Source: Pseudonocardia oceani (GTDB taxonomy: Bacteria; Actinomycetota; Actinomycetes; Mycobacteriales; Pseudonocardiaceae). From it: DNA of 64,000 bases. Positions within the stretch are counted from its first letter, which is position 1. Every line of letters starts with the position of its first letter. Shown here piece by piece: positions 8,566-23,426 of this stretch. The notes under the pieces are model-generated. The model was not told the origin of the DNA, searched no databases, and was given only the letters and a program-made list of their open reading frames with translations. The translations under genes were made by a program, and so were the position numbers. The stretch covers positions 5,528,501 to 5,592,500 of the forward strand of contig NZ_JADQDF010000001.1 in NCBI RefSeq assembly GCF_019263585.2, written 5' to 3'.

Positions 8566-8967
8566 GTGCACCAGGTCCCCGAGAAGCTCCGCGACGTGCG
8601 GGTCGTCGACCCCGACCAGGTCTGCGACGCCACCGCCGTGCTCGCCGACACCGAGCAGGTGCAGCACGCCGCGGCGGTGCTCGACGCGCTCGGCGACGTC
8701 AACCGCCTGTCGATCCTGCTCGCCCTGCACCACGCCGGCGACCTGTGCGTGTCCGACCTCGCGTTCGCCGTGGGGATGAGCGACAGCGCCGTCTCGCACG
8801 CCCTGCGGCTGCTGCGCGCGCACGGGATGGTGCTGGCGAGCCGCGAGGGCCGGCTCGTGCGCTACCGCGTCACCGGCGCGCTCACCGAGCGGCTGCTCGA
8901 CGTGGTCTCCGACGGGGTCGTCGGGGAGGTCGCGCTGCACGCCCACGGCCATCCCGTCGACGGCTGA
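8566..8967 (+). CDS. ArsR/SmtB-family metal-responsive regulator
   Basis: A 133-residue winged helix protein. The core runs from LDALGDVNRLSILLALHHAGDLCVSDLAFAV to RLLRAHGMVLASREGRLVRYRVT. The DLCVSDL helix is where ArsR/CmtR-type sensors place a metal ligand, and the C-terminus has a His-rich EVALHAHGHPVDG tail like nickel/cobalt sensors of the NmtR/KmtR type. It lies 109 bp before cbiM on the same strand and very likely represses the importer when metal is abundant. The exact metal is inferred from the neighbours. Confidence 0.85.
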   Translation: MHQVPEKLRDVRVVDPDQVCDATAVLADTEQVQHAAAVLDALGDVNRLSILLALHHAGDLCVSDLAFAVGMSDSAVSHALRLLRAHGMVLASREGRLVRYRVTGALTERLLDVVSDGVVGEVALHAHGHPVDG

Positions 8968-8990
8968 GATCGGAAACAAGAACGTCAAAC

Positions 8991-9008
8991 ATTGAAGACC
9001 TGTTCATG
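8991..9008. promoter_or_regulatory. Candidate ArsR-family operator upstream of cbiM
   Basis: ATTGAAGACCTGTTCATG is an AT-rich imperfect dyad (TGAA facing TTCA) in an otherwise GC-rich sequence, between the metal sensor and cbiM. Related sensors bind TGAAC-type inverted repeats. The halves match at only about 5 of 8 positions, so this is a suggestion. Confidence 0.35.
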
Positions 9009-9076
9009 CTTGCAGGGGTGCCCGCCCGGGTCCTAGGGTCGACCGACCGTCGCCGTCACGATCCGGGAGTCCCGCC

Positions 9077-9769
9077 ATGCACATCGCCGAGGGGTACCTC
9101 CCGCCGCTGCACGCGGCCGCCTGGACGGTGGCGGCGGCGCCGTTCGTCGTCCACGGGGCCCGGGCGGTGGTCCGCCGGGTCCGCGAGGACCCGGACACGA
9201 AGCTGCTGCTCGGGGCGGCCGGCGCGTTCGCGTTCGTGCTCTCGGCGCTGAAGATCCCGTCGGTCACGGGGTCGAGCTCGCACCCCACCGGCACCGGCCT
9301 GGGGGCGATCCTGTTCCGGCCCCCGGTGATGGCGCTGCTGGGCACGATCGTGCTGCTGTTCCAGGCCCTGCTCATCGCGCACGGCGGCATCACGACGCTG
9401 GGCGCGAACGCGTTCTCGATGGCGATCGTCGGGCCGTGGGTCGCCTACGGGGTGTTCGTGCTGGTCGGCAAGCTCGGCGGCGGGCTGTCGGTCGGGGTGT
9501 TCCTCGCGGCGTCGCTGGCGGACCTGGCCACGTACTCGACCACCTCGGTGCAGCTCGCGCTGGCCTACCCCGACGCCACCTCCGGCGTGCTCGGCTCGAT
9601 CGTCAAGTTCGGCACGATCTTCTCGATCACCCAGATCCCGCTCGCGGTCTGCGAGGGGCTGCTGACGGTGCTGATCGTGCGGCTGCTGGTGAAGGTCAGT
9701 CCCGCGGAGCTGCTCCGCCTGGGTGTCCTGCGCCGTCCCGCCACCACCCCCGCCCCCCAGGAGGTCTGA
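9077..9769 (+). CDS. cbiM: Energy-coupling factor cobalt/nickel transporter substrate-specific subunit CbiM
   Basis: A 230-residue membrane protein with the diagnostic N-terminus MHIAEGYLP, whose residues form the square-planar Co/Ni site of CbiM/NikM. Conserved [20 protein letters not shown] and later [15 protein letters not shown] segments follow, with six to seven transmembrane helices. With CbiN, CbiQ and CbiO it forms a class I ECF importer for Co(II) or Ni(II). It is the first gene of an operon closed by 1-4 bp junctions. Confidence 0.95.
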
Positions 9770-9770
9770 C

Positions 9771-10097
9771 GTGTCGCGCTCCGCACTGGTCAACTGGCTG
9801 CTCGTGCTCGCGGTGGTGGTGATCGCCGTGGTCCCGCTGGTGTTCATCGGCAGCGACACGGAGTTCGGGGGAGCCGACGGGGTGGCCGTCGAGCAGATCG
9901 AGGCCGACAACCCCGGTTACGAGCCGTGGTTCACGCCGCTGTTCGAGCCGGAGGCGGAGACGGCCTCGACGCTGTTCGCGCTGCAGGCGGCTCTCGGCGC
10001 GGGGTTCCTGGGCTACCTGTTCGGCGTCCTGAACACCCGGCGCCGCCTGGCCCGCGCGGCCGTCGTGACCGACGCTCAGCGCGACGACCCGGCCTGA
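9771..10097 (+). CDS. cbiN: Cobalt/nickel ECF transporter small subunit CbiN
   Basis: A 108-residue protein with two transmembrane helices (about 8-27 and 70-88) around an extracytoplasmic loop. That loop contains the CbiN signature EADNPGYEPWFTPLFEPEAETASTLFALQAALGAG. It couples with CbiM in metal uptake. The GTG start directly follows the cbiM stop and is preceded by GGAGG within the cbiM end. Confidence 0.93.
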   Translation: MSRSALVNWLLVLAVVVIAVVPLVFIGSDTEFGGADGVAVEQIEADNPGYEPWFTPLFEPEAETASTLFALQAALGAGFLGYLFGVLNTRRRLARAAVVTDAQRDDPA

Positions 10098-10831
10098 TGC
10101 ACGGGCTCGACGCCCTGGCCCAGACGACGCCGTGGCGGCGGCGGCACCCGGGGGAGAAGGCGCTGCTGGCCCTCGGGCTGGTCGGCGCGGCGGTCGCGCT
10201 GCCGCCGTGGCCGGGCGCGCCCGTCGTCGGCGCGGTGGCGCTGGCGCTGCTGCTCGGCCCGCTGCGCCTGCGGCCCGGGCAGGTGCTGCGCGCGGTGCGG
10301 GCGCCGCTGGTGTTCGTCGTCGTCGGGTCGGTGCCGCTGCTCGTCGCCGTCGGGGGCGTCCCGCTGGTCCGGTGGGCCCCGGAGGGCCTCGGCCCCGCGG
10401 TCGCCCTGGCCGGGCGGGCCACCGCCGCGCTGCTCTGCCTCATCCTGTTCGCCGCCAGCACCCCGCTGGCCGACGCGCTGCCGCGGCTGGAGCGCCTCGG
10501 CGTGCCCGCCGCCGTCACCGAGGTGGCGGCACTGGTCTACCGGCTGCTGTTCCTCCTGCTGGAGACGGCCGGCACCGTCCGCGAGGCGCAGGCCGGGCGG
10601 CTGGGCTTCCGGACCTGGCGCACCACCTACCGGTGCGTCGCCGGGCAGGCCGCCGCGGTCTTCGTCGGCGCGTTCGACCGCGCCCGGCGCCTGGAGCAGG
10701 GGCTCGCGCTGCGCGGCTACACCGGGTCGCTGCGGGTGCAGGTCGACGAGCGGCCGCTGTCGGTGCCGTTCGTCGTCGCCTCGGCGGCGCTGGTCGGAGC
10801 CGTCGTCACCGTGACGCTGGTGCTGGCGTGA
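10097..10831 (+). CDS. cbiQ: Cobalt/nickel ECF transporter transmembrane subunit CbiQ
   Basis: A 244-residue protein with four to six transmembrane helices. Cytoplasmic coupling motifs of ECF T-components are present: EAQAGRLG near residue 160 and ARRLEQGLALRGY near 200 (the Ala-Arg-Gly helices). It transmits ATPase movement to CbiM. The ATG overlaps the cbiN stop (TGATG). Confidence 0.93.
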   Translation: MHGLDALAQTTPWRRRHPGEKALLALGLVGAAVALPPWPGAPVVGAVALALLLGPLRLRPGQVLRAVRAPLVFVVVGSVPLLVAVGGVPLVRWAPEGLGPAVALAGRATAALLCLILFAASTPLADALPRLERLGVPAAVTEVAALVYRLLFLLLETAGTVREAQAGRLGFRTWRTTYRCVAGQAAAVFVGAFDRARRLEQGLALRGYTGSLRVQVDERPLSVPFVVASAALVGAVVTVTLVLA

Positions 10832-11694
10832 CGCCCGTGCTGGAGGCCCGGGGCCTGTGCTTCTCCTACGAGACGGGCCGCCCGGTCCTCGACGGTGCCG
10901 ACCTCGCCCTGCACGCCGGGCGCCGGGTCGCGGTCCTCGGACCCAACGGCGGCGGCAAGACCACCCTGTTCCGCCTGCTCGCGGGCGCGCTCGCCCCCGG
11001 CGCGGGGGAGGTGCTGCTCGACGGCGAGCCGGTCCGTCGCACCCGCCGCGGGCTCACCGCCCTGCGCACCCAGGTGCAGCTGGTCCTGCAGGACCCCGAC
11101 GACCAGCTGTTCTCCGCCAGCGTCGGGCAGGACGTGTCGTTCGGGCCGGTCAACATGGGCCTGCCCGCCGACGACGTGCGCGCCCGCGTCGACGCCGCCC
11201 TGGCCGCGCTGGGCATCACCGGCCTGGCCGAGCGCCCCACCCACATGCTGTCGTTCGGGCAGAAGAAGCGCGTGGCCATCGCGGGCGCGGTCGCGATGGC
11301 ACCCCGCCTGCTGGTCCTCGACGAACCCACCGCGGGCCTCGACCCGGCCGGCGTCGAGGAGCTCCTCGACACCCTCGCCGGACTGCACGCCACCGGCACC
11401 ACGCCCGTCCTGTCCACCCACGACGTCGACCTCGCCCACCGCTTCGCCGACGAGGTCGCCGTCGTCGTCGACGGCCGGGTCGTCACCGGCGAGACCTCCG
11501 CGGTCCTCGGCGACACCGCGCTGCTGCGCGCCGCCCGCCTCGGCCCGGCCTGGGCGCCCGCCGTGCACCGCCTGCTCGCCGCGGCGGGGTCCGACGCCCG
11601 CCCGCGCACCGCTGCCGAGCTGCACGAACTCCTCGCCGCCGTGGTGCAGACCACGTCCGCAGGGGCCGGGTCGACGGGCGCTCCGCAGGGGTGA
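10828..11694 (+). CDS. cbiO: Cobalt/nickel ECF transporter ATP-binding protein CbiO
   Basis: A 288-residue ABC ATPase. Walker A is GPNGGGKTT (38-46), the Q-loop region is LVLQDPDDQLFS, the signature is the ECF-type LSFGQKKRVAIAG, Walker B is LLVLDEPTAGLDP, and the switch His is in LSTHDVD. It starts at a GTG that overlaps the cbiQ stop (GTGA), so translation is coupled. It completes the CbiMNQO importer. Confidence 0.93.
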   Translation: MTPVLEARGLCFSYETGRPVLDGADLALHAGRRVAVLGPNGGGKTTLFRLLAGALAPGAGEVLLDGEPVRRTRRGLTALRTQVQLVLQDPDDQLFSASVGQDVSFGPVNMGLPADDVRARVDAALAALGITGLAERPTHMLSFGQKKRVAIAGAVAMAPRLLVLDEPTAGLDPAGVEELLDTLAGLHATGTTPVLSTHDVDLAHRFADEVAVVVDGRVVTGETSAVLGDTALLRAARLGPAWAPAVHRLLAAAGSDARPRTAAELHELLAAVVQTTSAGAGSTGAPQG

Positions 11695-12626: not shown

Positions 12627-13028
12627 CTAGACCTCGCCGGCCTCGGCCCGCGCGCGGCGGGACGGCGTGAACACGCACAGGTCGAGCAGGCCGGGCGGAT
12701 CCTCGACGCCGGGTCCGCCCGCCTGCACCCACTCGACGACCTCGTCCACGGTCTCCGGGTGCAGCACGTTGGCCAGCCAGACCGGCCGGGCTCCGGCGGC
12801 CCGGCCGGCGGGTGACGGTCCGACGACCACGACGTTGGACCGCTCGCAGGCATCGAGGCAGTCGGTGACCCGCACCCGCCCGGCGGCGCCCATCCCGTCG
12901 ACCAGCGCCGCGACCTGGCCCGTGTGATCGACGCCCGGATGCTTGCGCGCGGTGCCGCAGCAGCACCCACGGCAGACCGTGACGGTGCACCCGGCGGAGG
13001 ACGAGGACGCAGGACGGCGGCGGGGCAT
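12627..13028 (-). CDS. Thioredoxin-like (2Fe-2S) ferredoxin domain protein
   Basis: A 133-residue protein from the ATG at 13028. VTVCRGCCCGT near the N-terminus and VTDCLDACERSNVVVVGP about 40 residues later give the four-cysteine arrangement of thioredoxin-like 2Fe-2S ferredoxins. The C-terminal half contains PVWLANVLHPETVDEVVEWV. It is a likely small redox protein, partner unknown. It is divergent from the AmiC-like gene at 13157. Confidence 0.75.
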   Translation of the reverse strand: MPRRRPASSSSAGCTVTVCRGCCCGTARKHPGVDHTGQVAALVDGMGAAGRVRVTDCLDACERSNVVVVGPSPAGRAAGARPVWLANVLHPETVDEVVEWVQAGGPGVEDPPGLLDLCVFTPSRRARAEAGEV

Positions 13029-13156
13029 GCGTCCACTAGAACATTCACACCTGCGCAGATACCACTCGAACGGCGCAACCGCCGTCAACGTCACGGCAAC
13101 ACTGCGCTCGCAGACTGGTGCATCTTCCGGACCCGGGAGCAGCTGGAGGGGTCCCC

Positions 13157-14221
13157 ATGGTCACCGACGTACTCGACGTGGCATTCGTCGTCCCGAGCAG
13201 TGGACCGTCCGGGATCTACGGCCCGTCGTGCTGGGCCAGTGGCCGGCTGGCGGTGTCGGAGATCAACGACGGGGGCGGCATCCTCGGCCGCGAGGTCCGC
13301 CTGCGCCCGGTCGACGGGGGCAGGCGGCCGCAGGAGGTGGCCGACGAGGTCGGGTCCCTCGTGTCCACCGGCGCCGTCGGCGCCGTGGCGGGTTGGCACA
13401 CCTCGGCCGTCCGGCAGGCGGTGGTGCCGCGCCTGGAGGGCCGGGTCGCCTACGTCTACACCGCGTTGTACGAGGGCGGAGAGCGCACGCCGGGAGTGTT
13501 CCTGACGGGGGAGACGCCGGCCGGGCAGCTGCTTCCCGCGCTCGGGTGGATGGCCCGCGAGCTCGGCATCCGCAGCTGGTGCATCGTCGGCAACGACTAC
13601 ATCTGGCCCCGGGCCTCGGCCCGCGTGGCCCGGGCGTTCGCCGAGTCGGTGGGCGTGGAGATCCGCGACGAGGTCTACGTGGGCCTGGGCACCGAGGAGT
13701 TCGGTCCGACCCTGCGCCGCGTGGAGCGATCCCACGCGCAGGGGGTGCTGATGCTCCTCCTGGGATCCGACGCCGTGCAGTTCAACCGCGCCTTCACCGA
13801 GATGCGGCTGCACGACCACTGCGTGCGGCTGAGCCCGCTGATGGACGAGAACATGCTCCTGGCGACAGGGGCGGCCAACACCCACGAGCTGTACTCGGCG
13901 GCGGGTTTCTTCGAGGCGCTCGGCACCTCCCACGGGCTGGACTTCGAACGCCGCTACCTCGAGAGGCTGGGGCCCACCGCTCCGGCGATCACCTCGCCGG
14001 GCGAGTCGTGCTTCGAGGGGATGACGCTGCTGTCGCACCTGGCGGCGGCGGCGCGGAGCACCGACGTCGCCTCGATCAACGCGGCCGCGGAGTCGGTGAC
14101 CTACGAGGGTCCGCGGGGTGCGGTGCGGGTGCGGGACCGGCACCTGCTGCAGCGCATCTACCTGGCGCGGGCGGACGGCCTGGAGTTCGACGTGCTCGCC
14201 GAGATCGACGGCGGCGCCTGA
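13157..14221 (+). CDS. AmiC-like amide/urea-binding protein (cytosolic type I periplasmic-binding fold)
   Basis: A 354-residue protein of the receptor-family ligand-binding group that includes AmiC, FmdD and UrtA: VAFVVPSSGPSGIYGPSCWASGRLAVSEINDGGGILGREV, then GAVAGWHTSAVRQAVVPRLEGRVAYVYTALYEGGE. There is no signal peptide or lipobox, and no ABC permease or ATPase follows, so it is probably a cytosolic sensor like Pseudomonas AmiC rather than a transport protein. The ATG at 13157 has GGAGGGG 6-8 nt upstream. It opens the amide cluster. The usual partner AmiR antiterminator is absent; a MarR regulator follows on the opposite strand. Confidence 0.8.
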   Translation: MVTDVLDVAFVVPSSGPSGIYGPSCWASGRLAVSEINDGGGILGREVRLRPVDGGRRPQEVADEVGSLVSTGAVGAVAGWHTSAVRQAVVPRLEGRVAYVYTALYEGGERTPGVFLTGETPAGQLLPALGWMARELGIRSWCIVGNDYIWPRASARVARAFAESVGVEIRDEVYVGLGTEEFGPTLRRVERSHAQGVLMLLLGSDAVQFNRAFTEMRLHDHCVRLSPLMDENMLLATGAANTHELYSAAGFFEALGTSHGLDFERRYLERLGPTAPAITSPGESCFEGMTLLSHLAAAARSTDVASINAAAESVTYEGPRGAVRVRDRHLLQRIYLARADGLEFDVLAEIDGGA

Positions 14222-14258
14222 GCCGGGCGGATCGTCCGGCGGGCCGTCGGTGCGTTCC

Positions 14259-14693
14259 TCAGTCGTCCGGGGTGAGGAGGTCGAGCAGCTCGAGCAGGGT
14301 CGGTGCGTGGGCGCCGATCGCGCCGAGCAGCTCGGTCTCGACGTCACGCACCGCGGGGGACAGGCGGGTGTGCACGGCACGGCCGTCGTCGGACAGGAAC
14401 ACCAGGACGCGCCGGCGGTCGCGCGTGTCGGCGAGTCGGTAGACCCGGGCGGTGTCGACGAGCCGGTCGACGAGCTTGGTGAGCGTCGGCCCCGGTACGC
14501 CGACGGCAGCGGCGATGCCGGTCATCGTGAGGCCGGCGCCGCCGGAGAGCAGGTCGAGCACACGCCACTGGTCGACCGTCAGGCCGTCGGCGGCCACCAC
14601 GGCCTCGACACGGCGCGCCACCTGGTACTCGGCTCGCCCGAGAAGCCGGTCGAGCGGGGCGCGCCGCGCCGAGTCCTGCCCCGTCGACGTCAC
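14259..14693 (-). CDS. MarR-family transcriptional regulator
   Basis: A 144-residue winged helix protein. The helix-turn-helix runs around LTMTGIAAAVGVPGPTLTKLVDRLVDTARVYR, with the wing DTRDRRRVLVFLSDDG and flanking dimerisation helices. It is transcribed away from the gene at 14827, so the region 14694-14826 is shared, and it probably controls the amide cluster. The ligand is unknown. Confidence 0.85.
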   Translation of the reverse strand: MTSTGQDSARRAPLDRLLGRAEYQVARRVEAVVAADGLTVDQWRVLDLLSGGAGLTMTGIAAAVGVPGPTLTKLVDRLVDTARVYRLADTRDRRRVLVFLSDDGRAVHTRLSPAVRDVETELLGAIGAHAPTLLELLDLLTPDD

Positions 14694-14761
14694 GTCGCCT
14701 CCTGGTGTCGCATCCCGACCCGGACGGCCGGAACGCTGTCATCGTAAAGCAATGGACACGT

Positions 14762-14777
14762 GAGTGGTACTTCCAGG
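14762..14777 (+). promoter_or_regulatory. 16-bp motif, copy A (GAGTGGTACTTCCAGG)
   Basis: This exact 16-mer occurs here, in the promoter region between marR and the gene at 14827, and again at 16032-16047 just before fmdA. It contains TGG-N5-CCA half symmetry. An exact 16-mer is not expected by chance in 64 kb, so it is a candidate operator or leader element for the cluster. Confidence 0.5.
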
Positions 14778-14826
14778 CGACACTATTGCCGCAGCATGCT
14801 TCCATGGCACCGGGACGGGAAGCGGC

Positions 14827-15396
14827 GTGACGACGCCGGACCAGGGCCTGCGCTACGAGCTGGCCGCCGTGATCGGCGCTGCCGACGCACTCGCCGGCGT
14901 CGCCGCGGTGCTCGGGGTCGAGGCCGTGCCGCTCGACGCGGCGGACCTCGTGCTGGTGCCGGTCACCGCGGAGCCGGCCGGTGAGGTCACGCCCGCCGCG
15001 CTGTGCACGCCCGGGATGGACGTCATCCCCGGAGGCATGCCCTACGCCGCACAGCGCCGGGAGGGCTGGTCGACCGGTCGGGAGTCGGGGTTCGCGGTCC
15101 TCACGCCGGGTCTGGTCGCGGTTGTGGAGGCGGCGTCGACGCGCGGTCCACTGGCCTGCTCCACCGCCCCCGTGTCGGTCGCCCTGCGCGAGCTCGGGGT
15201 CGTGTCTGCCGGTCGACGCGACGACTTCGTCGTCGCCGGGCTCGGCCGGCACCGGCGCAAGGCCGGCTGGTTGCTGCCCCGCCCGCCGTCGCCCCTGAGC
15301 CACGTCACGGACCTGCCCGATGGGGCCGAGCACGACGAGGAGACGCAGATGACCGCTACGGACGACCCGGCCGCACGCCCTGGGGTGGGGGCGTGA
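14827..15396 (+). CDS. Hypothetical protein of the amide cluster
   Basis: A 189-residue protein from the GTG at 14827, with GGGACGGGAAG upstream. A longer reading starts inside the 16-bp motif and is less likely. The protein is soluble and contains CTPGMDVIPGGMPYAAQRRE in the middle and GRHRRKAGWLLPRPP towards the end. I do not recognise the family. Its stop overlaps the start of the next gene (GTGA), so it is translationally coupled and probably part of the fmdB-fmdA transcription unit. Confidence 0.6.
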   Translation: MTTPDQGLRYELAAVIGAADALAGVAAVLGVEAVPLDAADLVLVPVTAEPAGEVTPAALCTPGMDVIPGGMPYAAQRREGWSTGRESGFAVLTPGLVAVVEAASTRGPLACSTAPVSVALRELGVVSAGRRDDFVVAGLGRHRRKAGWLLPRPPSPLSHVTDLPDGAEHDEETQMTATDDPAARPGVGA

Positions 15397-15659
15397 CCCC
15401 CGCGCACGACCGGGTCCTGCTCACCGAGCGCGAGCGCAGGGATTTCGACCGTCTGGCACGGGATCCGGCGGTCCCGGCCGCAGGGCCCTCGCCCGCGACG
15501 CTGCTCGCGGTCGGCCTGATCGGCGTGGTGGCCGGGGCGCTGGCCGTCAGCCCGGTCGTCATGGTCGCCGGGATCGCCCTCGCCCTGACCGTGCTCGGCC
15601 GCGCCGTGCGCTCCCACCCGCGGGGCGAGGGCCCCGGCGGTCGGCAGCAGGCGGGTTGA
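15393..15659 (+). CDS. DUF3040-like small membrane protein
   Basis: An 88-residue protein. The N-terminus LLTERERRDFDRLARD resembles the DUF3040 start, and two hydrophobic segments follow (about 34-50 and 52-68: LLAVGLIGVVAGALAV, VVMVAGIALALTVLG). It begins at a GTG overlapping the previous stop. Function is unknown. The family assignment is tentative because DUF3040 proteins are usually longer. Confidence 0.6.
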   Translation: MTPAHDRVLLTERERRDFDRLARDPAVPAAGPSPATLLAVGLIGVVAGALAVSPVVMVAGIALALTVLGRAVRSHPRGEGPGGRQQAG

Positions 15660-15684
15660 CATAAACTTCCGAACGACATAGTTT
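15656..15684 (+). promoter_or_regulatory. Sigma-70 type promoter with internal dyad upstream of fmdB
   Basis: TTGACA (15656-15661) is separated by 17 nt from TAGTTT (15679-15684), a near-consensus housekeeping promoter. AAACT and AGTTT form an inverted repeat with 12 nt between them, overlapping the promoter, which suits a MarR-type operator. The segment is notably AT-rich compared with its surroundings. Confidence 0.6.
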
Positions 15685-15716
15685 GAGATGACAGTAATGC
15701 TGATCGAGAGGGGCCC

Positions 15717-16004
15717 GTGATGCCGACCTACCGGTACGCCTGCGCCGAGTGCGGGGCCTTCGACGCGATCCGCCCGATGCGCGAGTCCGGTTCGGGCGCC
15801 TCCTGCCCGATCTGCGCCGGACCCTCCCGTCGGGTGTTCGGGGCCCCCGCACTGCGAGCGCTCCCCGCCGGTCTGCGTAGCGCGCTCGACGCCCAGCACC
15901 GCAGTGCCGACGCCCCTCGGGTCGCCACATCGGTACCGGGCCGGGCCGGCCGCACGCAGCGCCGCGCGACCGATCCCAGGCAGCTGCGCCTGCCCCGCCC
16001 GTAG
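15717..16004 (+). CDS. fmdB: FmdB-family zinc ribbon protein
   Basis: A 95-residue protein. The FmdB zinc ribbon occupies the N-terminus: MPTYRYACAECGAFD then ASCPICAGPSRRVFGAPALR, with two CxxC pairs. The family is named from the formamidase operon of Methylophilus, where it was proposed to be regulatory. Location 52 bp before fmdA repeats that association. The start is GTG 15717 or ATG 15720; AGAGG upstream suits either. Confidence 0.88.
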   Translation: MMPTYRYACAECGAFDAIRPMRESGSGASCPICAGPSRRVFGAPALRALPAGLRSALDAQHRSADAPRVATSVPGRAGRTQRRATDPRQLRLPRP

Positions 16005-16031
16005 CGCCCGCACCGTCGTCCGTCCCCGCCC

Positions 16032-16047
16032 GAGTGGTACTTCCAGG
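16032..16047 (+). promoter_or_regulatory. 16-bp motif, copy B, overlapping the fmdA ribosome-binding site
   Basis: GAGTGGTACTTCCAGG again, identical to 14762-14777. Its last bases form part of the AGGAGG Shine-Dalgarno of fmdA, so a factor bound here, or to the RNA, could affect translation as well as transcription. Confidence 0.5.
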
Positions 16048-16056
16048 AGGTTCGCC

Positions 16057-17304
16057 GTGCCCGACGTCGTCTTCAGCGTGGACCAGGCCAAGTCGATGCG
16101 TGACCAGGTCGTCCCCGGTCACAACCGCTGGCACCCCGACATCCCGCCCGCCGCCACGGTGAAGCCGGGCTCGTCGATCCGCATCGAGTGCCGGGAGTGG
16201 ACCGACTCGCAGATCGGCAACAACGACTCGGCGAACGACGTCCGCGACGTGGAGCTCGACGGCTGCCACATGCTGTCCGGCCCGATCGCCATCGAGGGGG
16301 CCGAGCCGGGCGACCTGCTCGTCGTCGACATCCTCGACCTCGGTCCGGTACCGCAGGAGATCGGCGACGCGCCCGGGCAGGGGTGGGGCTACACCGGCAT
16401 CTTCGCGACGGGCAACGGCGGCGGTTTCCTCACCGAGGAGTACCCCGACGCCTACAAGGCGATCTGGGACTTCAGCGGCCAGAAGGCCACCTCGCGCCAC
16501 ATCCCCGGCGTCAGCTACACCGGTATCACCCACCCCGGGCTGTTCGGCACCGCGCCCTCACCGGAACTGCTGGTGAAGTGGAACGAGCGCGAGCGCGCGC
16601 TGATCGCCACCGACCCGGGGCGCGTTCCTCCGCTGGCGCTGCCTCCGCTGGAGGCGCTGGTGCTCGGCGGCACCGCCACCGGCGACACGCTGGCCGGGAT
16701 CGCCCGGGACGGGGCCCGCACCGTGCCGCCGCGGGAGAACGGCGGCAACCACGACATCAAGAACTTCACCCGCGGCTCCCGCGTGTTCTACCCCGTGCAC
16801 CACCCGGGGGCGTTGTTCTCCGGTGGCGACCTCCACTTCAGCCAGGGCGACGGCGAGATCACGTTCTGCGGGGCCATCGAGATGGGCGGGTTCATCGACT
16901 TCCACGTCGACCTGATCAAGGGGGGCATGGAGACCTACGGCGTCACCACCAACCCGATCCTGATGCCGGGCAACGTGGAGCCGCGCTACAGCGAGTTCGT
17001 CACGTTCATCGGCATCTCGGTCGACCACACGACGAACACCAACCACTACAACGACGCCACGCTCGCGTACAAGAACGCCTGCCTCAACGCGGTCGAGTAC
17101 CTCAAGAAGTTCGGGTACTCCGGTCCGCAGGCGTACCTGCTGCTGGGGTCGGCCCCGATCGAGGGACGGGTCAGCGGTGTCGTCGACATCCCGAACGCCT
17201 GCTGCTCGCTCTACCTGCCCACCGCGATCTTCGACTTCGACATCACGCCGTCGGCGGCCGGTCCGGTCACGGCCGACCGCGGGTCCTGCGCGGTCTCGTC
17301 GTGA
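16057..17304 (+). CDS. fmdA: Formamidase (acetamidase/formamidase family)
   Basis: A 415-residue protein, full length for FmdA. It hydrolyses formamide (and sometimes acetamide) to formate and ammonia in the cytosol. Visible features are the N-terminal [50 protein letters not shown] and [22 protein letters not shown], which carry the metal and substrate residues of the family. The GTG at 16057 is preceded by AGGAGG. The stop overlaps the GTG of the amidase-like gene, so the two are translationally coupled. Confidence 0.93.
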
Positions 17305-18113
17305 GACGGGTCGGGGCCGGGCACCCCGGCGGCAGCGTCGGGGTGGCGGTGCTGAGTCACACCGTGCCGGCGCCGCGCTCCCGCGGCGACGTGCGGCTCA
17401 ACTACCTGCGGATCGCCGACCTCGTCGTCGGCATGAAGCACGGCGAGCCCGGCCTCGACCTGATCGTCTTCCCCGAGTACGGCACCCACGGCTTCGGGGG
17501 AGGCGGGTCCGATGCGCTGACGATGCCCGGCGAGGACGTCGACGTGTTCGCCAGGGCCTGTCGCACCGCCGGGGTGTGGGGCGTGTTCTCGGTCAGCGGG
17601 GGCCGCTGCCGCCCCGATCCCGACAACACCATCGTCCTCATCGACGACCGTGGCGGGGTGGTGCAGCGGCACAGCCGGGCCGCCGGCCGCCGCGGCGGCG
17701 ACCCGCCCGAGGTCGTGGCGGGTCCCGGCGGGCTGCGCACGGGGCTGAGCATCGTCCGTGACGACCCGGCCGTCGGTCAGGGCTGCCAGTTCCGCGGCGC
17801 CGAGCTGCTGATCCGGTACCAGGCCGAGCCGGACGTGCCGGCGTCCGCCCAGGTGCAGGCCGCGCGGGCCGCGGCCTGGATGGGCACCTGCTACGTCGTG
17901 GCCCCGAACGCGGCCGGGCGCGCCGGCCGGCGCCGCTGGTCGGGCCACTCCGCGATCGTCGGCTTCGACGGCGTGACGCTGGGCGAGTGCGGCGACGAGG
18001 AGCACGAGTTCCAGTACGCCGAGCTGTCGATCGGCGCGCTGCGCCGGGCCCGGTCCGGGCGTGCGCTGCTGGAGCGCACGTTGCGGACGCGTGCCCTCGC
18101 GCGCGCCTCCTGA
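17301..18113 (+). CDS. Nitrilase-superfamily aliphatic amidase homologue lacking catalytic Lys and Cys
   Basis: A 270-residue protein clearly related to aliphatic amidase AmiE (about 346 residues): [61 protein letters not shown]. The catalytic Glu is kept (Glu59 in FPEY). The segment that should hold the Lys (YRKxxPW) reads [10 protein letters not shown]. The nucleophile site ICDDG reads IVRDDP, with Arg153 replacing Cys. The C-terminal ~70 residues are also missing. It is probably a pseudoenzyme with a structural or sensing role. It is coupled to fmdA by a GTGA overlap and lies 44 bp before the first tubulin-like gene. Confidence 0.8.
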
Positions 18114-18157
18114 ACCCATCCGTCCGAGAACGACCAGCCGCGAGGAGCCAGCACACG

Positions 18158-19645
18158 ATGTCAGACGACCACGGACACGGACACGGCCACGACGATCCCC
18201 ACGACACGACACTCGCCCGGATCGAGGCGCTGAGCAAGGAGAACGTCCACCACGCGGGCGACCACGAGGGCCCGTTCTCGCTGCACGTACTGGGCCTGGG
18301 GGCGACCGGCGCGGCCGTCGTCGCCGAGATCCTGAAGGACGCACCCGAGGGCTTCACGGCGCTGGCGGTCAACATCGGCGACGGGCCGCTCGCGGCCGTC
18401 CGCGCCGCGGCGGGGGAGACGCCCGGGATCGTCACGGTGGACCTGCCGATCCCGAGCAGGTCCGGTCTGTCGGCGTCGCTGAACCGGTACCGCGAGTTCC
18501 TCAAGATGGAGTACCCGCGCTACTACTGGAACCCGAACTACGAGCCGTGGCTGCCCGGCGACCTGGCGCTGCCCGGCCCGGACGAGTTCGTGCCGCGGGC
18601 GATCGCCAAGGCGATCTACAACTGCGAGTACTACCAGAACCAGGAGATCACGACGGCGATGGAGGCGTTCGCCGCGGGCGTCCTCGCCAGCGACAAGACG
18701 CCCGTCGTGGTGATCCCGTTCTCCCTCGGCGACAGCATCGGCAGCGGGCTGGTCGTCGACATCGCCCGCCACCTGTCGTCGATCAAGCTGGGGCGCCGCC
18801 CGTGGGTGGTCGGCGTCGGCATCACCCCGACCACGCCGTCCGCCGAGTTCTTCCCGGTGATCAACGAACTCGACTGCATGATCGACACTCCGAAGAACCA
18901 GGGCGTGATGGCGGTCTGGGGCGACCTCTACAAGAACCCGTTCACCGGCGGCTTCTTCTCCGTTCCCGAGGCGCCCGGTGCGGACGTGGTCCCCGGGGTC
19001 GCGAAGTTCCTGGCCGCCGGCGGTGGCCAGGACCTCTACGAGTCGCTCAAGGCGCTCAACTGGCTCGCGGTCCCCGGCGACCAGTGGCACCCGGCCATCC
19101 GGGGCGAGCAGAGCGACAAGTGGCTCAACGTCCTGGCCGTCTCGACGCTGGAGGACGCCGGCTCGCTGGGTGGTCTGGGCCTGGTCGAGGGCTTCTCCAC
19201 CGAGTACGCCGAGGCCCGCGTGTTCGGCTCGGGCCCGGCGGCCACCGCCGCCGCGAAGGCCGTGGCCGGGGCGATCGGCGAGGTCGCCACCACCCGGGTG
19301 GAGCCCGTCGTCAAGACCGCGGAGGGGGCCGACTTCGTCAGCGTCGTCCTGCCCCGCGCCACCAAGCTCGACCTGGAGGCGTTCGTCCCGTCCCGCGATC
19401 TCTACGACCCGCTGGAGTGGGAGGACAAGCTGCTCCTGCACTCGTGGATCCTCGATCTCGGGGTGATGCTCTGCGAGCCCTCCATCCGGTTCGACGGCAT
19501 GGGCGGCGAGTGCATCTGGGGCTGCGCCTGCTGGGTCGTCGTCCCGCACGCGGCCATCCGAGGGGAGGCGATCGCGTCCCCGATCTCCGACGCGGAGGTC
19601 GCGGCGATCGCCACCTCCGGTGCCGGTGTGGCGGCGTCCGGATGA
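18158..19645 (+). CDS. Tubulin/FtsZ-fold protein A (degenerate GTPase loop, His-rich N-terminus)
   Basis: A 495-residue protein from the ATG at 18158 (GAGGAG upstream), unlike any family I can name. The N-terminal half follows the FtsZ/tubulin order: glycine-rich T1-like loop LGLGATGAAVV (45-55), AVNIGD (70-75), T4-like loop LGDSIGSG (190-197), and WVVGVGITP as in the FtsZ strand before T5. Relative to paralogue B (20023) the T4 loop has lost the GGTG core, so GTP use is doubtful. The first 16 residues are His/Asp-rich (HGHGHGHDDPHD), a likely metal-binding tail. Shared with B are YPRYYWNPNYEPWLP, VMAVWGDLYKNPFTGGFF and C452-x3-C456-x-C458 in ECIWGCACW. Confidence 0.75.
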   Translation: MSDDHGHGHGHDDPHDTTLARIEALSKENVHHAGDHEGPFSLHVLGLGATGAAVVAEILKDAPEGFTALAVNIGDGPLAAVRAAAGETPGIVTVDLPIPSRSGLSASLNRYREFLKMEYPRYYWNPNYEPWLPGDLALPGPDEFVPRAIAKAIYNCEYYQNQEITTAMEAFAAGVLASDKTPVVVIPFSLGDSIGSGLVVDIARHLSSIKLGRRPWVVGVGITPTTPSAEFFPVINELDCMIDTPKNQGVMAVWGDLYKNPFTGGFFSVPEAPGADVVPGVAKFLAAGGGQDLYESLKALNWLAVPGDQWHPAIRGEQSDKWLNVLAVSTLEDAGSLGGLGLVEGFSTEYAEARVFGSGPAATAAAKAVAGAIGEVATTRVEPVVKTAEGADFVSVVLPRATKLDLEAFVPSRDLYDPLEWEDKLLLHSWILDLGVMLCEPSIRFDGMGGECIWGCACWVVVPHAAIRGEAIASPISDAEVAAIATSGAGVAASG

Positions 19646-19661
19646 GGGGAGGAGGGGGCTG

Positions 19662-19961
19662 ATGGCCACCGACTGGGCCGACGTCGTCAAGCGGTACGCC
19701 GACGGTGCCGAGCTCCCGTCGATGCCGGGGGCCCGCACGCTCAAGGTCACCGGCGCCGACGACGGCTACGTCTACGTCTCGCACCGGCTCTGGCAGGACA
19801 AGATCACCCGTGCCTACCTCGAGAAGGCGATGACGCTCCTCGACGAGGGGAAGATGACCCGCAACTACGGCGACGTCATCGACCACTACCGCACCTACAT
19901 CGCCGACGAACGGCCGACGACGGCCGCGACCATCCTCAAGGACCTCGGCTACCTCGACTGA
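19662..19961 (+). CDS. Small cluster protein S1 (paralogue of 22804 and 23100)
   Basis: A 99-residue soluble protein from the ATG at 19662, with GGAGGGG 4-10 nt upstream. Layout: W-x-x-V-x-x-RY-x-x-G near the N-terminus, a short beta segment (LKVTGADDGYVYVSHRLWQDKITR), then helices ending ATILKDLGYLD. It shares this pattern with the proteins at 22804 and 23100, so the three are paralogues. It lies between the two tubulin-like genes, which suggests a stoichiometric partner. Family and function are not recognised. Confidence 0.7.
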   Translation: MATDWADVVKRYADGAELPSMPGARTLKVTGADDGYVYVSHRLWQDKITRAYLEKAMTLLDEGKMTRNYGDVIDHYRTYIADERPTTAATILKDLGYLD

Positions 19962-20022
19962 CCCGTCCGCACTCCCGGGGACGTACCGCGCTGACGCACG
20001 CCCGAAAACAGGAGGAATGGCA

Positions 20023-21678
20023 ATGGGATTGTCCATGTACCACAGTGCGACCGGTGCGCAGTCGCCGCACTGCATCCACGCGATCGGCATCGGCAAGATG
20101 GGCGCCTACATGGTCGAGGCGCTGCTGCGCACCGGTGAGATCGAGGACATGCTGGAGGACCCGCGCGCCCGGTTCACCGGCCTCTCGATCGACATCGGTG
20201 ACCAGGACCAGCACGAGCTGAAGGAGTACGTGAGCGGCTTCGACCAGCGCCTCGCGGAGCGCGGCATCCCGACCGAGCGGGCCCAGGTCCGCACCGTGTC
20301 CCTGGACGTGCCGGAGAAGAAGGACCTCATGACCAGCCTCAACCGCTGGCGCGAGTACCTGAAGATGGAGTACCCCCGGTACTACTGGAACCCGAACTAC
20401 GAGCCGTGGCTGCCGAGTGACACCGAGATGCCGAAGGCCGGGGACTCCGTCCCGCGCGCCATAGCGAAGGCGATCTACGGGCACTACTACTACGGCGAGG
20501 ACAAGTCGCTGGAGAAGGAGCTCGACGACTTCGTCGCGAGCATCAACCAGACGAAGCTGCCGTCGCTCGTCCTCGTGTTCTTCTCGCTGTCCGGCGGCAC
20601 CGGTTCGGGCATGGTCGTCGACCTCGCGCGGCACCTGTCCAACGTCAAGCTCGGCCGCCGCATCCCGGTGGTCGGAGTGGCGGCGATGCCGTTCTCCGGC
20701 GACGAGGCGCACGTCGGCGGCGACGCCGCGCTGTACCCGACGATGAACGAGATCGACTGCATGCTCGACGACGCCAAGAACCAGGGCGTCATGGCGGTGT
20801 GGGGCGACCTCTACAAGAACCCCTTCACCGGTGGCTTCTTCGCCCTCCCGCAGGAGCACTCCTGGCAGCGCCTGGGCTCCTACACCAAGACCGGCAAGCC
20901 GGCGATCCGCGACGCGCTCCGCAAGGGGGTCACGCGCAAGTTCGTGAACGACTCCTTCATGCGCTTCGTCGTGCAGGACTACGGCCGACTGCTGTTCAAG
21001 ATGCTGCGCCCGATGGGCTTCACCGGCGCCCCGCACGAGCGCAACATCTCCGGTGACCGCACCTGGACGCTCTTCGACGTCGCCAAGTACACCCACCCGG
21101 GCGTCGAGGTGCTGCCGGGCGAGCCGCGCAGCAAGTGGCGCGCGGTCGTCAACAAGTGGATCGGCTACATCCCGCAGTGGTCGGGCCTCAAGGAGGGCTT
21201 CAAGACCGACTACATCGAGGCCCACACCGTGGCTCCGCGCGAGCTGTGGAACGAGGGCCTGGAGACCAAGCTCAAGGAGACCCTGCAGACCTTCGTCCTC
21301 GACGGCGACGACGGAACGGTCAACACCTCGGTCGGAGAGTTCTTCGACGAGCTCACGGCATACTCGAACATCATCATCCCGGGTGTCGCGAAGACGGACT
21401 TCACGGCCTTCTACGAGGCCCGCGACGCCTACGACGCGATCGAGTCGTGGGACGAGAAGCTGATGATGCACTCCTGGCTGCTCGACCTCGGCGTGATCCT
21501 GTCCGAGCAGTCCATCCGCTTCGACGGCATGGCGGGCGAGTGCATCTGGGGCTGCGCCTGCTGGGTGGTCATCCCGCACGAGGCGATCCGCGGCGACGCC
21601 CCGATCTCGAAGGACGTCACCATCGTGCAGGCCGAGCACATCGCGATGATGGTCAAGACGGTCGTCCCGACCCCCTGA
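20023..21678 (+). CDS. Tubulin/FtsZ-fold protein B (intact SGGTGSG loop)
   Basis: A 551-residue protein. The ATG at 20023 is chosen because AGGAGG ends 7 nt upstream; an ATG at 20017 would be too close. The tubulin-superfamily GTPase pattern is present: T1-like GIGKMGAYM (22-30), LSIDIGD (54-60), T4 signature SGGTGSG (190-196) followed by MVVDLARHL, and IPVVGVAAMPFSGDE like FtsZ strand S5/T5. A usual T7 NxDxxD catalytic loop is not obvious. It shares long blocks with protein A and the C-terminal C507-x3-C511-x-C513 motif. It is about 55 residues longer than A, with an insertion around 275-345. Known cytoskeletal FtsZ, CetZ and TubZ lack the YYWNPNYEPW and CxxxCxC blocks. Confidence 0.78.
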   Translation: MGLSMYHSATGAQSPHCIHAIGIGKMGAYMVEALLRTGEIEDMLEDPRARFTGLSIDIGDQDQHELKEYVSGFDQRLAERGIPTERAQVRTVSLDVPEKKDLMTSLNRWREYLKMEYPRYYWNPNYEPWLPSDTEMPKAGDSVPRAIAKAIYGHYYYGEDKSLEKELDDFVASINQTKLPSLVLVFFSLSGGTGSGMVVDLARHLSNVKLGRRIPVVGVAAMPFSGDEAHVGGDAALYPTMNEIDCMLDDAKNQGVMAVWGDLYKNPFTGGFFALPQEHSWQRLGSYTKTGKPAIRDALRKGVTRKFVNDSFMRFVVQDYGRLLFKMLRPMGFTGAPHERNISGDRTWTLFDVAKYTHPGVEVLPGEPRSKWRAVVNKWIGYIPQWSGLKEGFKTDYIEAHTVAPRELWNEGLETKLKETLQTFVLDGDDGTVNTSVGEFFDELTAYSNIIIPGVAKTDFTAFYEARDAYDAIESWDEKLMMHSWLLDLGVILSEQSIRFDGMAGECIWGCACWVVIPHEAIRGDAPISKDVTIVQAEHIAMMVKTVVPTP

Positions 21679-21747
21679 CCGGTACCGGGCCGGCCGGCGC
21701 ACCACGCCGGCCGGCCCTGCCCCTCCGCCACCCCCGAGGAGTCAGCC

Positions 21748-22230
21748 GTGCCCGCCATCGGAGACAGGGTCCCCGACACCACCGTCATGATCACCACCCC
21801 CGACGGCCCCGGCCCCGCCAGCTCGGCGGAGCTGCTGGGCGCCGGCACCGTCGTGCTCGTCGGGGTCCCCGGCGCGTTCACCCCCGTCTGCAGTGACTTC
21901 CACCTCCCCGGATTCGTCCTCGCGGCCGACCAGCTCAAGGAGAAGGGCGTCGACAGGATCGCGTTCGTCTCGGTGAACGACGCCTTCGTCATGGGTGCCT
22001 GGGGCAGGGCCGAGGACGTGGGCCGGGAGTTCCTCATGATCGCCGATCCCGACGCGGCCTTCGCGAGGGCCATGGGCATGGACACCGACGCCGGCGCGTT
22101 CGGGCTCGGCACCCGCTCGCAGCGCTACGCCGCGATCATCGAGGACGGCGTGATCACCTCGTTCGACGTCGAGGCGGAGTTCGTCGACCACCGGGTCAGC
22201 ACCGCCGAGGCCGTGCTGGCGAGGCTGTGA
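21748..22230 (+). CDS. Peroxiredoxin (Prx5-type, 1-Cys)
   Basis: A 160-residue AhpC/TSA-family protein. The peroxidatic site is PGAFTPVCSDFHLPGF with Cys48, typical of peroxiredoxin 5. No second cysteine is visible, so it should be a 1-Cys enzyme needing an outside reductant. The GTG start is preceded by GAGGAG. It is embedded between tubulin-like gene B and the sigma-like gene, so it may protect cysteine-rich cluster proteins from peroxide (inference). Confidence 0.9.
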   Translation: MPAIGDRVPDTTVMITTPDGPGPASSAELLGAGTVVLVGVPGAFTPVCSDFHLPGFVLAADQLKEKGVDRIAFVSVNDAFVMGAWGRAEDVGREFLMIADPDAAFARAMGMDTDAGAFGLGTRSQRYAAIIEDGVITSFDVEAEFVDHRVSTAEAVLARL

Positions 22231-22234
22231 TGTC

Positions 22235-22330
22235 GTGACCGGGGACGTCGTGACCGGGGACGTCGTGACCGGGGACGTCGTGACCGGGGACGTCGTGACC
22301 GGGGACGCCGTGACCGGGGACGCCGTGACC
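22235..22330 (+). repeat. 15-bp tandem repeat forming serial GTG start sites
   Basis: GTGACCGGGGACGTC occurs four times (22235-22294), then GTGACCGGGGACGCC twice (22295-22324), then a partial unit. Every copy supplies an in-frame GTG and a GGGGA sequence 5-6 nt before the next GTG. The unit is a multiple of 3, so copy number changes would alter only the N-terminal V-T-G-D-V repeat or the number of start sites. Confidence 0.9.
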
Positions 22331-22801
22331 GGGACGGACTGCGCGCAGGAGTTCGACGAGTGGCTCGGCCGGGTCGGTGCGCTCTTCGAGGCCGTGCGGT
22401 TCACCTGCACCCACCGCCTCGCCGATCCGGCGCTGGCCGAGCAGGTGAGCGTGCAGGTCGTCGCCGGGATGGTGGCCCGACCCGCGGTGTTCCGGTACTT
22501 CGGGCTGCCGTTCTCCGGCCGGATCGCGAAGCTGGCCGAGGGGCTGATCGCCACGGCCGACGCCGGTGGGCTGGCCGTCGTGTGCGGCTGGCGCGAGCTG
22601 CGCGGCCGGATCGCGAACCTGCCCCACGAGCACCGTGAGCCGCTCGTGGTGACCTGCCTGCGCGGCGGCGACGCCGAGGAGCTCGCGGCGGTGCTGGCGT
22701 GCGACGTGGCCGTGGCCGAGGGCCGCCACGAGGCGATGCTCGCGTACGTGGAGGAGCTGGTCCGACCCGGCACCGCGCCGGTTCGCGTGGAGAGGGGCTG
22801 A
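22235..22801 (+). CDS. Sigma-70-like helical protein with repeat-encoded N-terminus
   Basis: 188 residues if read from the first GTG; the true start could be any of seven in-frame GTGs. After (VTGDV)n, residues 40-95 (WLGRVGALFEAVRFTCTHRL, then DPALAEQVSVQVVAG) resemble sigma region 2. Residues 125-175 (LPHEHREPLVVTCLRGGDAEELAAVL) resemble the sigma region 4 pattern LPxxxRxxLxL..G...EELAxxL. The promoter-contact residues of true ECF factors are not evident, so it may be a divergent or non-DNA-binding derivative. It lies 2 bp before small protein S2. Confidence 0.55.
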   Translation: MTGDVVTGDVVTGDVVTGDVVTGDAVTGDAVTGTDCAQEFDEWLGRVGALFEAVRFTCTHRLADPALAEQVSVQVVAGMVARPAVFRYFGLPFSGRIAKLAEGLIATADAGGLAVVCGWRELRGRIANLPHEHREPLVVTCLRGGDAEELAAVLACDVAVAEGRHEAMLAYVEELVRPGTAPVRVERG

Positions 22802-22803
22802 CG

Positions 22804-23103
22804 GTGCCACTGGACTGGACGCTGGTCATGGACCGCTACGACGGCGGGACGAGGATCCCGACGGTCGCGGGCGGGAAGACGTTGGAGATCACCGGGGTCG
22901 ACGACACCGGCGTGCACATCCGGCACGCGCTGTGGCGGGACACGCTCGCCCGCGAGCACCTGTCGAAGGCGGCCGAGCTCATCGAGTCGGACCGGATGAG
23001 CCGGCACGCCGGGCTGTTCGTCGAGGAGTACCGGGCGCTGGTGGCCGACGTGCGGGCGACGTCGGTCGCGCACGTGCTCAAGGACCTGGGCTACCTGGAA
23101 TGA
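22804..23103 (+). CDS. Small cluster protein S2
   Basis: A 99-residue protein from the GTG at 22804. It is a clear paralogue of S1: LDWTLVMDRYDGGTRIP, LEITGVDDTGVHIRHALWRD, and the ending AHVLKDLGYLE against TILKDLGYLD. It keeps the acidic helix FVEEYRALVADVR. The stop overlaps the ATG of S3 (ATGA), so both are made together. Function is unknown. Confidence 0.7.
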   Translation: MPLDWTLVMDRYDGGTRIPTVAGGKTLEITGVDDTGVHIRHALWRDTLAREHLSKAAELIESDRMSRHAGLFVEEYRALVADVRATSVAHVLKDLGYLE

Positions 23104-23426
23104 GCCTCGACTGGCCCTCGGTGCTGGACCGCTACCGCGGCGGCCGGAGCGTGCGCCCGCTCGTCGGGAGCTCGACGCTGCGGGTGGAGGTCGCCGACGA
23201 CGCACTGGTCGTCACCCAGCGGCTCTGGCGGGCCGAGGTGACCCGCTCCGAGCTGCAGGTGGCGCTGGATCTACTGGGGGACCGCGGGGCCCGGGTCGGC
23301 GCCGTCCGGTTCTCCGAGGAGCTGCGCCGCCACTACTCCGGCGGTCCGCAGGTGCAGCCGACCTGCTCGCGCACCCCCAACCTCAGTGCGGTGGTCCTCG
23401 TCGACCTGGGCCACCTCACGGTGTGA
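23100..23426 (+). CDS. Small cluster protein S3 (divergent)
   Basis: A 108-residue protein. It is the third and most divergent paralogue: LDWPSVLDRYRGGRSVRPL, LRVEVADDALVVTQRLWRAEVTRSEL. The C-terminus differs, with an insertion (PQVQPTCSRTPN) before a terminal VVLVDLGHLTV in place of LKDLGYL. The ATG overlaps the S2 stop. Its end overlaps psuK on the opposite strand by 11 bp, which marks the end of the cluster. Confidence 0.65.
   Translation: MSLDWPSVLDRYRGGRSVRPLVGSSTLRVEVADDALVVTQRLWRAEVTRSELQVALDLLGDRGARVGAVRFSEELRRHYSGGPQVQPTCSRTPNLSAVVLVDLGHLTV

Follow-up and report, generated by a model that had tools for sequence, protein, structure and literature searches.

What do two proteins of the tubulin/FtsZ fold do beside a formamidase gene? 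The question is raised by a gene cluster of Pseudonocardia oceani, analysed here in a window of 64,000 nucleotides (contig NZ_JADQDF010000001.1, positions 5,528,501 to 5,592,500; coordinates below are those of the window, and L numbers are our locus identifiers). Members of the tubulin superfamily are known as GTPases that form filaments and serve in cell division, cell shape and the movement of DNA. An initial annotation, made from the sequence alone, named AmiC-like, MarR and FmdB genes and a run from FmdA through an amidase-like gene, two tubulin-like genes (A and B), peroxiredoxin and sigma-like genes and three small genes (S1 to S3), and all of these are located in the window. It took the whole for a candidate undescribed system, which it is not: the triad A-S1-B corresponds to AnhA-AnhE-AnhB of the acetonitrile hydratase (ANHase) of Rhodococcus jostii RHA1, so that we are dealing with a known enzyme in variant form and with an unexpected fold. 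We propose that the locus very probably codes for an ANHase-type enzyme, a hydratase of small nitriles that depends on cobalt, with a heterodimer of two tubulin-fold proteins, cobalt delivery by AnhE and a subsequent FmdA step. Our own part of this proposal is the homology, the gene linkage, the predicted folds and the motif pattern described below.

Kinship with the Rhodococcus acetonitrile hydratase

A tblastn search of plasmids with B (20017–21678, forward strand) gave 15 records, 12 of them from Rhodococcus, including pRHL2 of R. jostii RHA1. B is 56.5% identical to its pRHL2 homologue over 99% of its length, A (18158–19645, forward) is 55% identical, and S1 (19662–19961, forward, between A and B) is 60% identical over 99 residues; a P. 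hydrocarbonoxydans protein is 96% identical to B. The order on pRHL2 is MarR, AmiC, an aliphatic amidase, A, the small protein, B and a metal transporter (annotated as a nickel transporter), and the alpha subunit of classical nitrile hydratase (NHase) has no match on this plasmid. The predicted masses of the pRHL2 A, small and B proteins are 55.8, 11.1 and 63.0 kDa. The Rhodococcus ANHase was reportedly described in 2007, and these masses agree with the values reportedly given by Okamoto and Eltis (2007) and by Okamoto et al. (2010). In extracts of PMC3511329 and PMC3680314, the RHA1 ANHase is a cobalt NHase with the gene order alpha-AnhE-beta, in which AnhE is the cobalt metallochaperone; the same order is given in an extract of PMC7193024. 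By homology and gene order, it is most likely that the window triad corresponds to AnhA-AnhE-AnhB, with A and B forming the enzyme itself and S1 acting as its putative cobalt metallochaperone. The initial annotation had envisaged an assembly of A and B with S1 to S3, either a scaffold or filament or a new enzyme. The enzyme option is favoured, the scaffold option is not, and S1 is more likely a metallochaperone.

The two loci have homologous subunits, the alpha-AnhE-beta order, and MarR, AmiC, amidase and metal transporter genes as neighbours. They differ in that the pRHL2 type has a Cys triplet in AnhA only, whereas the window type has it in both subunits; that FmdA and a damaged AmiE take the place of an intact AmiE; and that the window triad is followed by two more AnhE paralogues as well as by genes for a peroxiredoxin and a sigma-like protein. 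The same triad occurs with a cobalt energy-coupling factor (ECF) transporter on R. rhodochrous pNit, where it stands alongside a classical NHase, and in a sea-ice Rhodococcus. On an Agrobacterium plasmid, it is flanked by CobW, CbtAB and MoxR/VWA genes.

Like classical cobalt or iron NHase (PF02979), the triad would use cobalt for the same presumed reaction, has a Cys-rich motif resembling a claw and would need an activator or metallochaperone. In contrast, A and B have no NHase family match, read C-x3-C-A-C rather than C-x2-C-S-C, and have a different predicted fold. Classical NHase was dropped as the nearest family, since the 69 members of the A/B family that were scanned gave no NHase family, and only Tubulin_2 and Tubulin, at E ≤ 0.01.

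Conservation of the neighbourhood

Fifty-two loci from one genome-contig scan, five plasmid loci and the window were assembled and L068 was set aside, leaving 57 sequences, of which 43 were retained by flank length for neighbour counts. Genes A, E and B stand in this order in 54 of the 57 sequences (tblastn, by script; the AnhA count in the tblastn survey is inflated by cross-hits on AnhB). In the other three, part of A immediately precedes AnhE: in L017 and L018 the contig begins within A, and in L033 A is in two pieces with an intervening stop. An AmiE or FmdA homologue is present in 35 of the 43 well-flanked sequences, or in 33 without two AmiE-only loci whose catalytic triads are damaged. 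A cobalt-handling gene (CbiM, CbiQ, NicT, CbtA or CobW) is likewise found in 35/43, and a cobalt/nickel transporter homologue in 27/43. By the terms of the initial annotation, homologues of A and B routinely found without the amide and small-protein genes would speak against its reading. This is half the case: S1 is a constant partner, but fmdA lies beside the triad in just 8 of the 43, with AmiE in most others.

In the window, cobalt genes lie at 8566–11694, upstream of and outside the region covered by the initial annotation, which missed them; their presence gives the function away. They comprise an ArsR-family gene (8566–8967, forward; PF01022 HTH_5, 41.8 bits, cut-off 22), whose product is probably a metal-responsive regulator, and a cobalt ECF transporter operon, CbiM-CbiN-CbiQ-CbiO (9077–11694, forward), with profile matches to each gene: CbiM (9077–9769, 181 bits), CbiN (9723–10097, 82 bits), CbiQ (9926–10831, 119.5 bits) and CbiO (10132–11694, ABC_tran, 103.5 bits). 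CbiM has two matches in the whole genome, one being the window copy.

The family is rare: homologues turn up in 3 of the 396 genomes that represented the phylum and in 11 of the 62 that represented the genus (the genome itself counted in both). Among the best 120 of 873 matching protein clusters, homologues come from Actinomycetota, cyanobacteria, Pseudomonadota and Bacillota; the remaining clusters may include other tubulin-like proteins. In filamentous cyanobacteria (L030, L031, L034, L035, L062), the triad is accompanied by AmiE and CobW, with Cbi transporter genes also in L031 and L035.

A probable amide step

From FmdB to S3, the genes are tightly packed, with intergenic gaps of -4 to 69 bases (for FmdA and the AmiE-like gene, the starts used differed slightly from those given here). 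FmdA (16057–17304, forward) matches the formamidase/acetamidase family PF03069 with 568.8 bits and the formamidase model NF045496 with 630.8 bits (cut-off 500); the FmdA family includes acetamidases too. The amide pathway named by the initial annotation is borne out. The amidase-like gene that follows (17301–18113, forward) begins with a GTG that overlaps the fmdA stop. It does match CN_hydrolase (71 bits), but it reaches 209.8 of the 427 bits of the AmiE cut-off and is degenerate: in an alignment of 40 AmiE-type rows (L043 being spurious and L033 cut), the Glu of its Glu-Lys-Cys triad is kept, and Lys and Cys are lost. The same two residues are lost in L012 and L013, and in L016 and L029 Lys is lost and the surroundings of Cys are altered; with the window, these make five damaged triads among the AmiE homologues of the neighbour count. 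Window FmdA occupies the slot held by AmiE in most loci.

Since FmdA is a formamidase by its 631 bits against an equivalog model, one may ask whether the enzyme, while belonging to the same family, is here chiefly a cyanide hydratase, converting hydrogen cyanide into formamide, which FmdA would split into formate and ammonia. In keeping with this, the locus amidase is damaged and the genome has no other strong AmiE relative (the damaged one scores 187 bits, the next 27 bits). On the other hand, acetamidases belong to the FmdA family, FmdA coexists with an intact-triad AmiE in L014 and L045, and the genome encodes a second full-length FmdA elsewhere. We regard cyanide as the chief substrate as a possibility worth keeping, if a rather tentative one.

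A candidate metal site

The C-terminal parts of A and B contain a triplet, C-x3-C-x-C. Motifs were counted in the window and in 56 loci, 57 sequences in all (L068, which has remnants only, was omitted), and removal of three without a usable A and two with a truncated B left 52 AnhA/AnhB pairs. Of these pairs, 32 have an intact triplet in both subunits, 11 have one only in A, 9 have one only in B, and none is without it altogether. It goes together with an N-terminal segment, YYWNPN: 88 proteins have both motifs, 21 have neither, and none has one without the other. Further residues, including R112, K116, E129, W478, R501 and E508 of B, are found in all triplet-bearing proteins and are mostly lost otherwise. 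The C-terminal A pieces of L017, L018 and L033, which are not in these counts, each carry the triplet. In a tree of 107 rows, from which the two motif stretches were excluded and L060 and L063 omitted, a single branch with support 100 separates A from B, and the site changes its state three times. The sequences include near-copies (L053/L054 and L055/L065).

Because the triplet resembles the claw of NHase, C-x2-C-S-C, we infer that it binds cobalt. If A and B were NHase homologues whose triplet is a structural site for zinc or another metal, cobalt would have to sit elsewhere. The RHA1 enzyme has reportedly been found with metals besides cobalt, as such a reading would have it. However, the triplet resembles a catalytic claw, and the retention of at least one intact site per pair fits a catalytic role; a purely structural site is, in our opinion, unlikely.

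Small proteins and proposed cobalt delivery

Given identities of 42% between S1 and S2 (22804–23103, forward) and of 38% over 78 columns between S2 and the diverged S3 (23100–23426, forward, overlapping S2 by 4 bases), the three are paralogues, as had been suspected. Relatives of S2 and S3 occur in other Pseudonocardiaceae-type loci, and most two-site loci of that type carry a relative of S2. The idea of one AnhE per metal site was dropped, as the same search gave no S2 relative in L024 or in the two-site loci of cyanobacteria.

AnhA proteins of one group, the window A included, have a His-rich tail at the N-terminus. A His-rich tail without a CobW gene in reach is found in 26 sequences, CobW without the tail in 24, neither in 3, and both in none; the 26 His-tailed sequences are all actinobacterial. 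CobW was rejected as a universal partner, being absent from 26/26 sequences with a His-rich AnhA. His tail and CobW may be two routes of cobalt delivery.

A predicted tubulin fold in a probable enzyme

A and B share 39% identity. With Pfam, B alone barely exceeds the Tubulin_2 cut-off (27.7 against 27 bits) and A alone has no match, whereas across the 69 family members scanned (E ≤ 0.01), Tubulin_2 is matched by 57 and Tubulin by 51. The predicted models of both proteins match tubulin, FtsZ and CetZ structures with both domains spanned, TubZ being among the top matches, and on these models A and B are members of the tubulin/FtsZ superfamily, as the initial annotation had it. Sequence searches of the PDB gave two weak matches with an A1 profile, namely an Asgard tubulin at E 0.03 and 4b46 at E 0.15, a single meaningless match with A, and a single weak match, 3kg4_A (E 0.008), with the pRHL2 small protein. 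The nucleotide loop T4, xGTGSG, is present in 57/57 AnhB and 29/54 AnhA; it is intact in window B (GGTGSG) and degenerate in window A (DSIGSG). As B retains this loop, it is likely that it binds GTP, for a structural purpose or for assembly. Unlike the tubulin/FtsZ/CetZ superfamily at large, A and B have a C-terminal part with a Cys triplet and adjoin amide and cobalt genes. FtsZl1 and FtsZl2, as described in an extract of PMC2875224, are further tubulin-superfamily families of bacteria and archaea, but are implicated in membrane remodelling.

With a tubulin fold across both domains and a T4 loop in every AnhB, could A and B, without being catalysts themselves, form a cytoskeletal-type filament or scaffold that organises FmdA and further enzymes? 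This is very improbable, because the Cys triplet and YYWNPN are strictly co-conserved and jointly lost, as an active site would be, and an enzyme role is reported for the presumed homologues of RHA1, which by our reading form the enzyme; moreover, the amidase partner is exchangeable among loci. Almost no credence can be given to TubZ-like segregation tubulins with amide genes adjacent by chance, for all the 15 plasmid records and the TubZ fold match, since the contig that carries the window genes is at least 6.5 Mb long, 50,697 phage records hold no match, and the linkage with amidase and cobalt genes extends across phyla. A phage or viral origin was set aside, with no match in those phage records or in viral contigs (short peptide patterns only).

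A third, shorter tubulin-like paralogue occurs in proteobacterial anh loci, mostly near MoxR/VWA genes (L067, 16619–17767, 382 amino acids, KTGSG loop), without the Cys-triplet domain. Related pieces are found in L038, L040, L046, L048, L059 and L068; in L068, from Shinella, the paralogue is accompanied only by an AnhB-like remnant. Ordinary FtsZ is encoded elsewhere in the P. oceani genome (6.82 Mb, high GC).

A model, and what weighs against it

In the model that we propose, A (AnhA) pairs with B (AnhB) into a heterodimer whose two halves both have the tubulin fold. CbiMNQO would import cobalt, and S1, probably with S2 and S3, would deliver it with help from the His-rich tail of A. The metal would be held in the C-terminal triplet C-x3-C-A-C, facing the YYWNPN segment, where R-CN would be hydrated to R-CONH2; FmdA would then split the amide into acid and ammonia, and the AmiC-like protein and MarR would sense amide or substrate. 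Most likely, the system hydrates a small nitrile, perhaps cyanide, and FmdA acts on the product. Cobalt, nitrile hydration and the role of AnhE are taken over from the work of others on RHA1; the metal site, GTP, regulation and the substrate in this organism are our suggestions. It is tempting to go further and see a tubulin-superfamily heterodimer turned cobalt metalloenzyme, with one claw site per subunit in the Pseudonocardia type, in which GTP bound to B governs how a large enzyme, resembling a filament or a ring, is assembled, the site is completed at subunit contacts, cyanide is converted to formamide for FmdA, and three losses of the site each struck a single partner; this extended scheme we consider doubtful.

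Several points weigh against the hydratase proposal itself. The equation of the pRHL2 genes RHA1_RS41530–41540 with anhA-anhE-anhB depends on gene order, context and agreement with the reported numbers. Eight of the 43 well-flanked sequences have no cobalt-handling homologue in reach, the close relatives L012 and L013 among them, and eight have no amidase homologue. The motif pattern amounts to three independent events, and the split between His tail and CobW follows phylogeny. The genome also holds three matches to classical NHase alpha (G000:C3:4026803, 2385472 and 3517517), so that nitriles may be handled by two unrelated enzyme types. As far as its extract goes, PMC7329996 places a C-x-L-C-S-C motif in all known NHase alpha subunits, at odds with our motif reading, since A and B read C-x3-C-A-C and not its C-x(T/S)-L-C-S-C; it also assigns self-subunit swapping to ANHase, at odds with our view of AnhE. 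Finally, the table in the extract of PMC6941271 has one RHA1 nitrile hydratase, which may or may not be ANHase and which its legend would place on the chromosome and not on pRHL2. That table also counts one nitrile hydratase on pNit, which carries both the triad and a classical enzyme, so that it may simply omit the ANHase type.

What would follow if this is a cobalt hydratase? The locus points to a renewed use of the tubulin shape, here in a metal enzyme, and the tubulin fold could then bear a metal active site. To our knowledge, ANHase resembles no other nitrile hydratase, and such a fold would account for that unlikeness. Many proteins annotated as ‘tubulin-like’ or ‘hypothetical’ in Actinomycetota, cyanobacteria, Pseudomonadota and Bacillota would become predicted nitrile degraders. 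A limited literature search on ‘nitrile hydratase’ with ‘tubulin’ found nothing on such a link by title or start of abstract; the tubulin fold of ANHase is perhaps not yet in print.

Other genes of the locus

Between the transporter and FmdA lie a small Cys-rich ferredoxin-like gene (12627–13094, reverse) without a Pfam match; an AmiC/UrtA-type amide or urea binding protein (13157–14221, forward, ATG start; Peripla_BP_6, 245.5 bits); a MarR-family regulator (14259–14693, reverse; PF12802, 41.6 bits); and an FmdB-like zinc-ribbon protein (15720–16004, forward; Zn_ribbon_8, 42.6 bits, cut-off 34.4). Relatives of the ferredoxin-like protein, found by tblastn with the window or an Agrobacterium query, lie near anh loci in 17/58 sequences, window counted.

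Downstream of B stand a Redoxin-type peroxiredoxin (21748–22230, forward; PF08534, 106.3 bits) and a sigma-like gene (22235–22801, forward) with weak sigma-factor similarity (E 0.014) and an uncertain start. In the stretch 22235–22340, the gene as called begins with a tandem 15-base repeat encoding VTGDV units, and the real start is probably further in. Homologues lie near actinobacterial anh loci in 29 of 58 sequences (again with the window), and the proteins share a conserved FRYFGLPYSGRIAxLAE-like stretch and, by our reading, an end resembling sigma region 4. In nine anh loci, a gene for an AAA_2/ClpB_D2-type ATPase lies near the amidase, as in L065 (5787–6851) and L066 (5482–6564).

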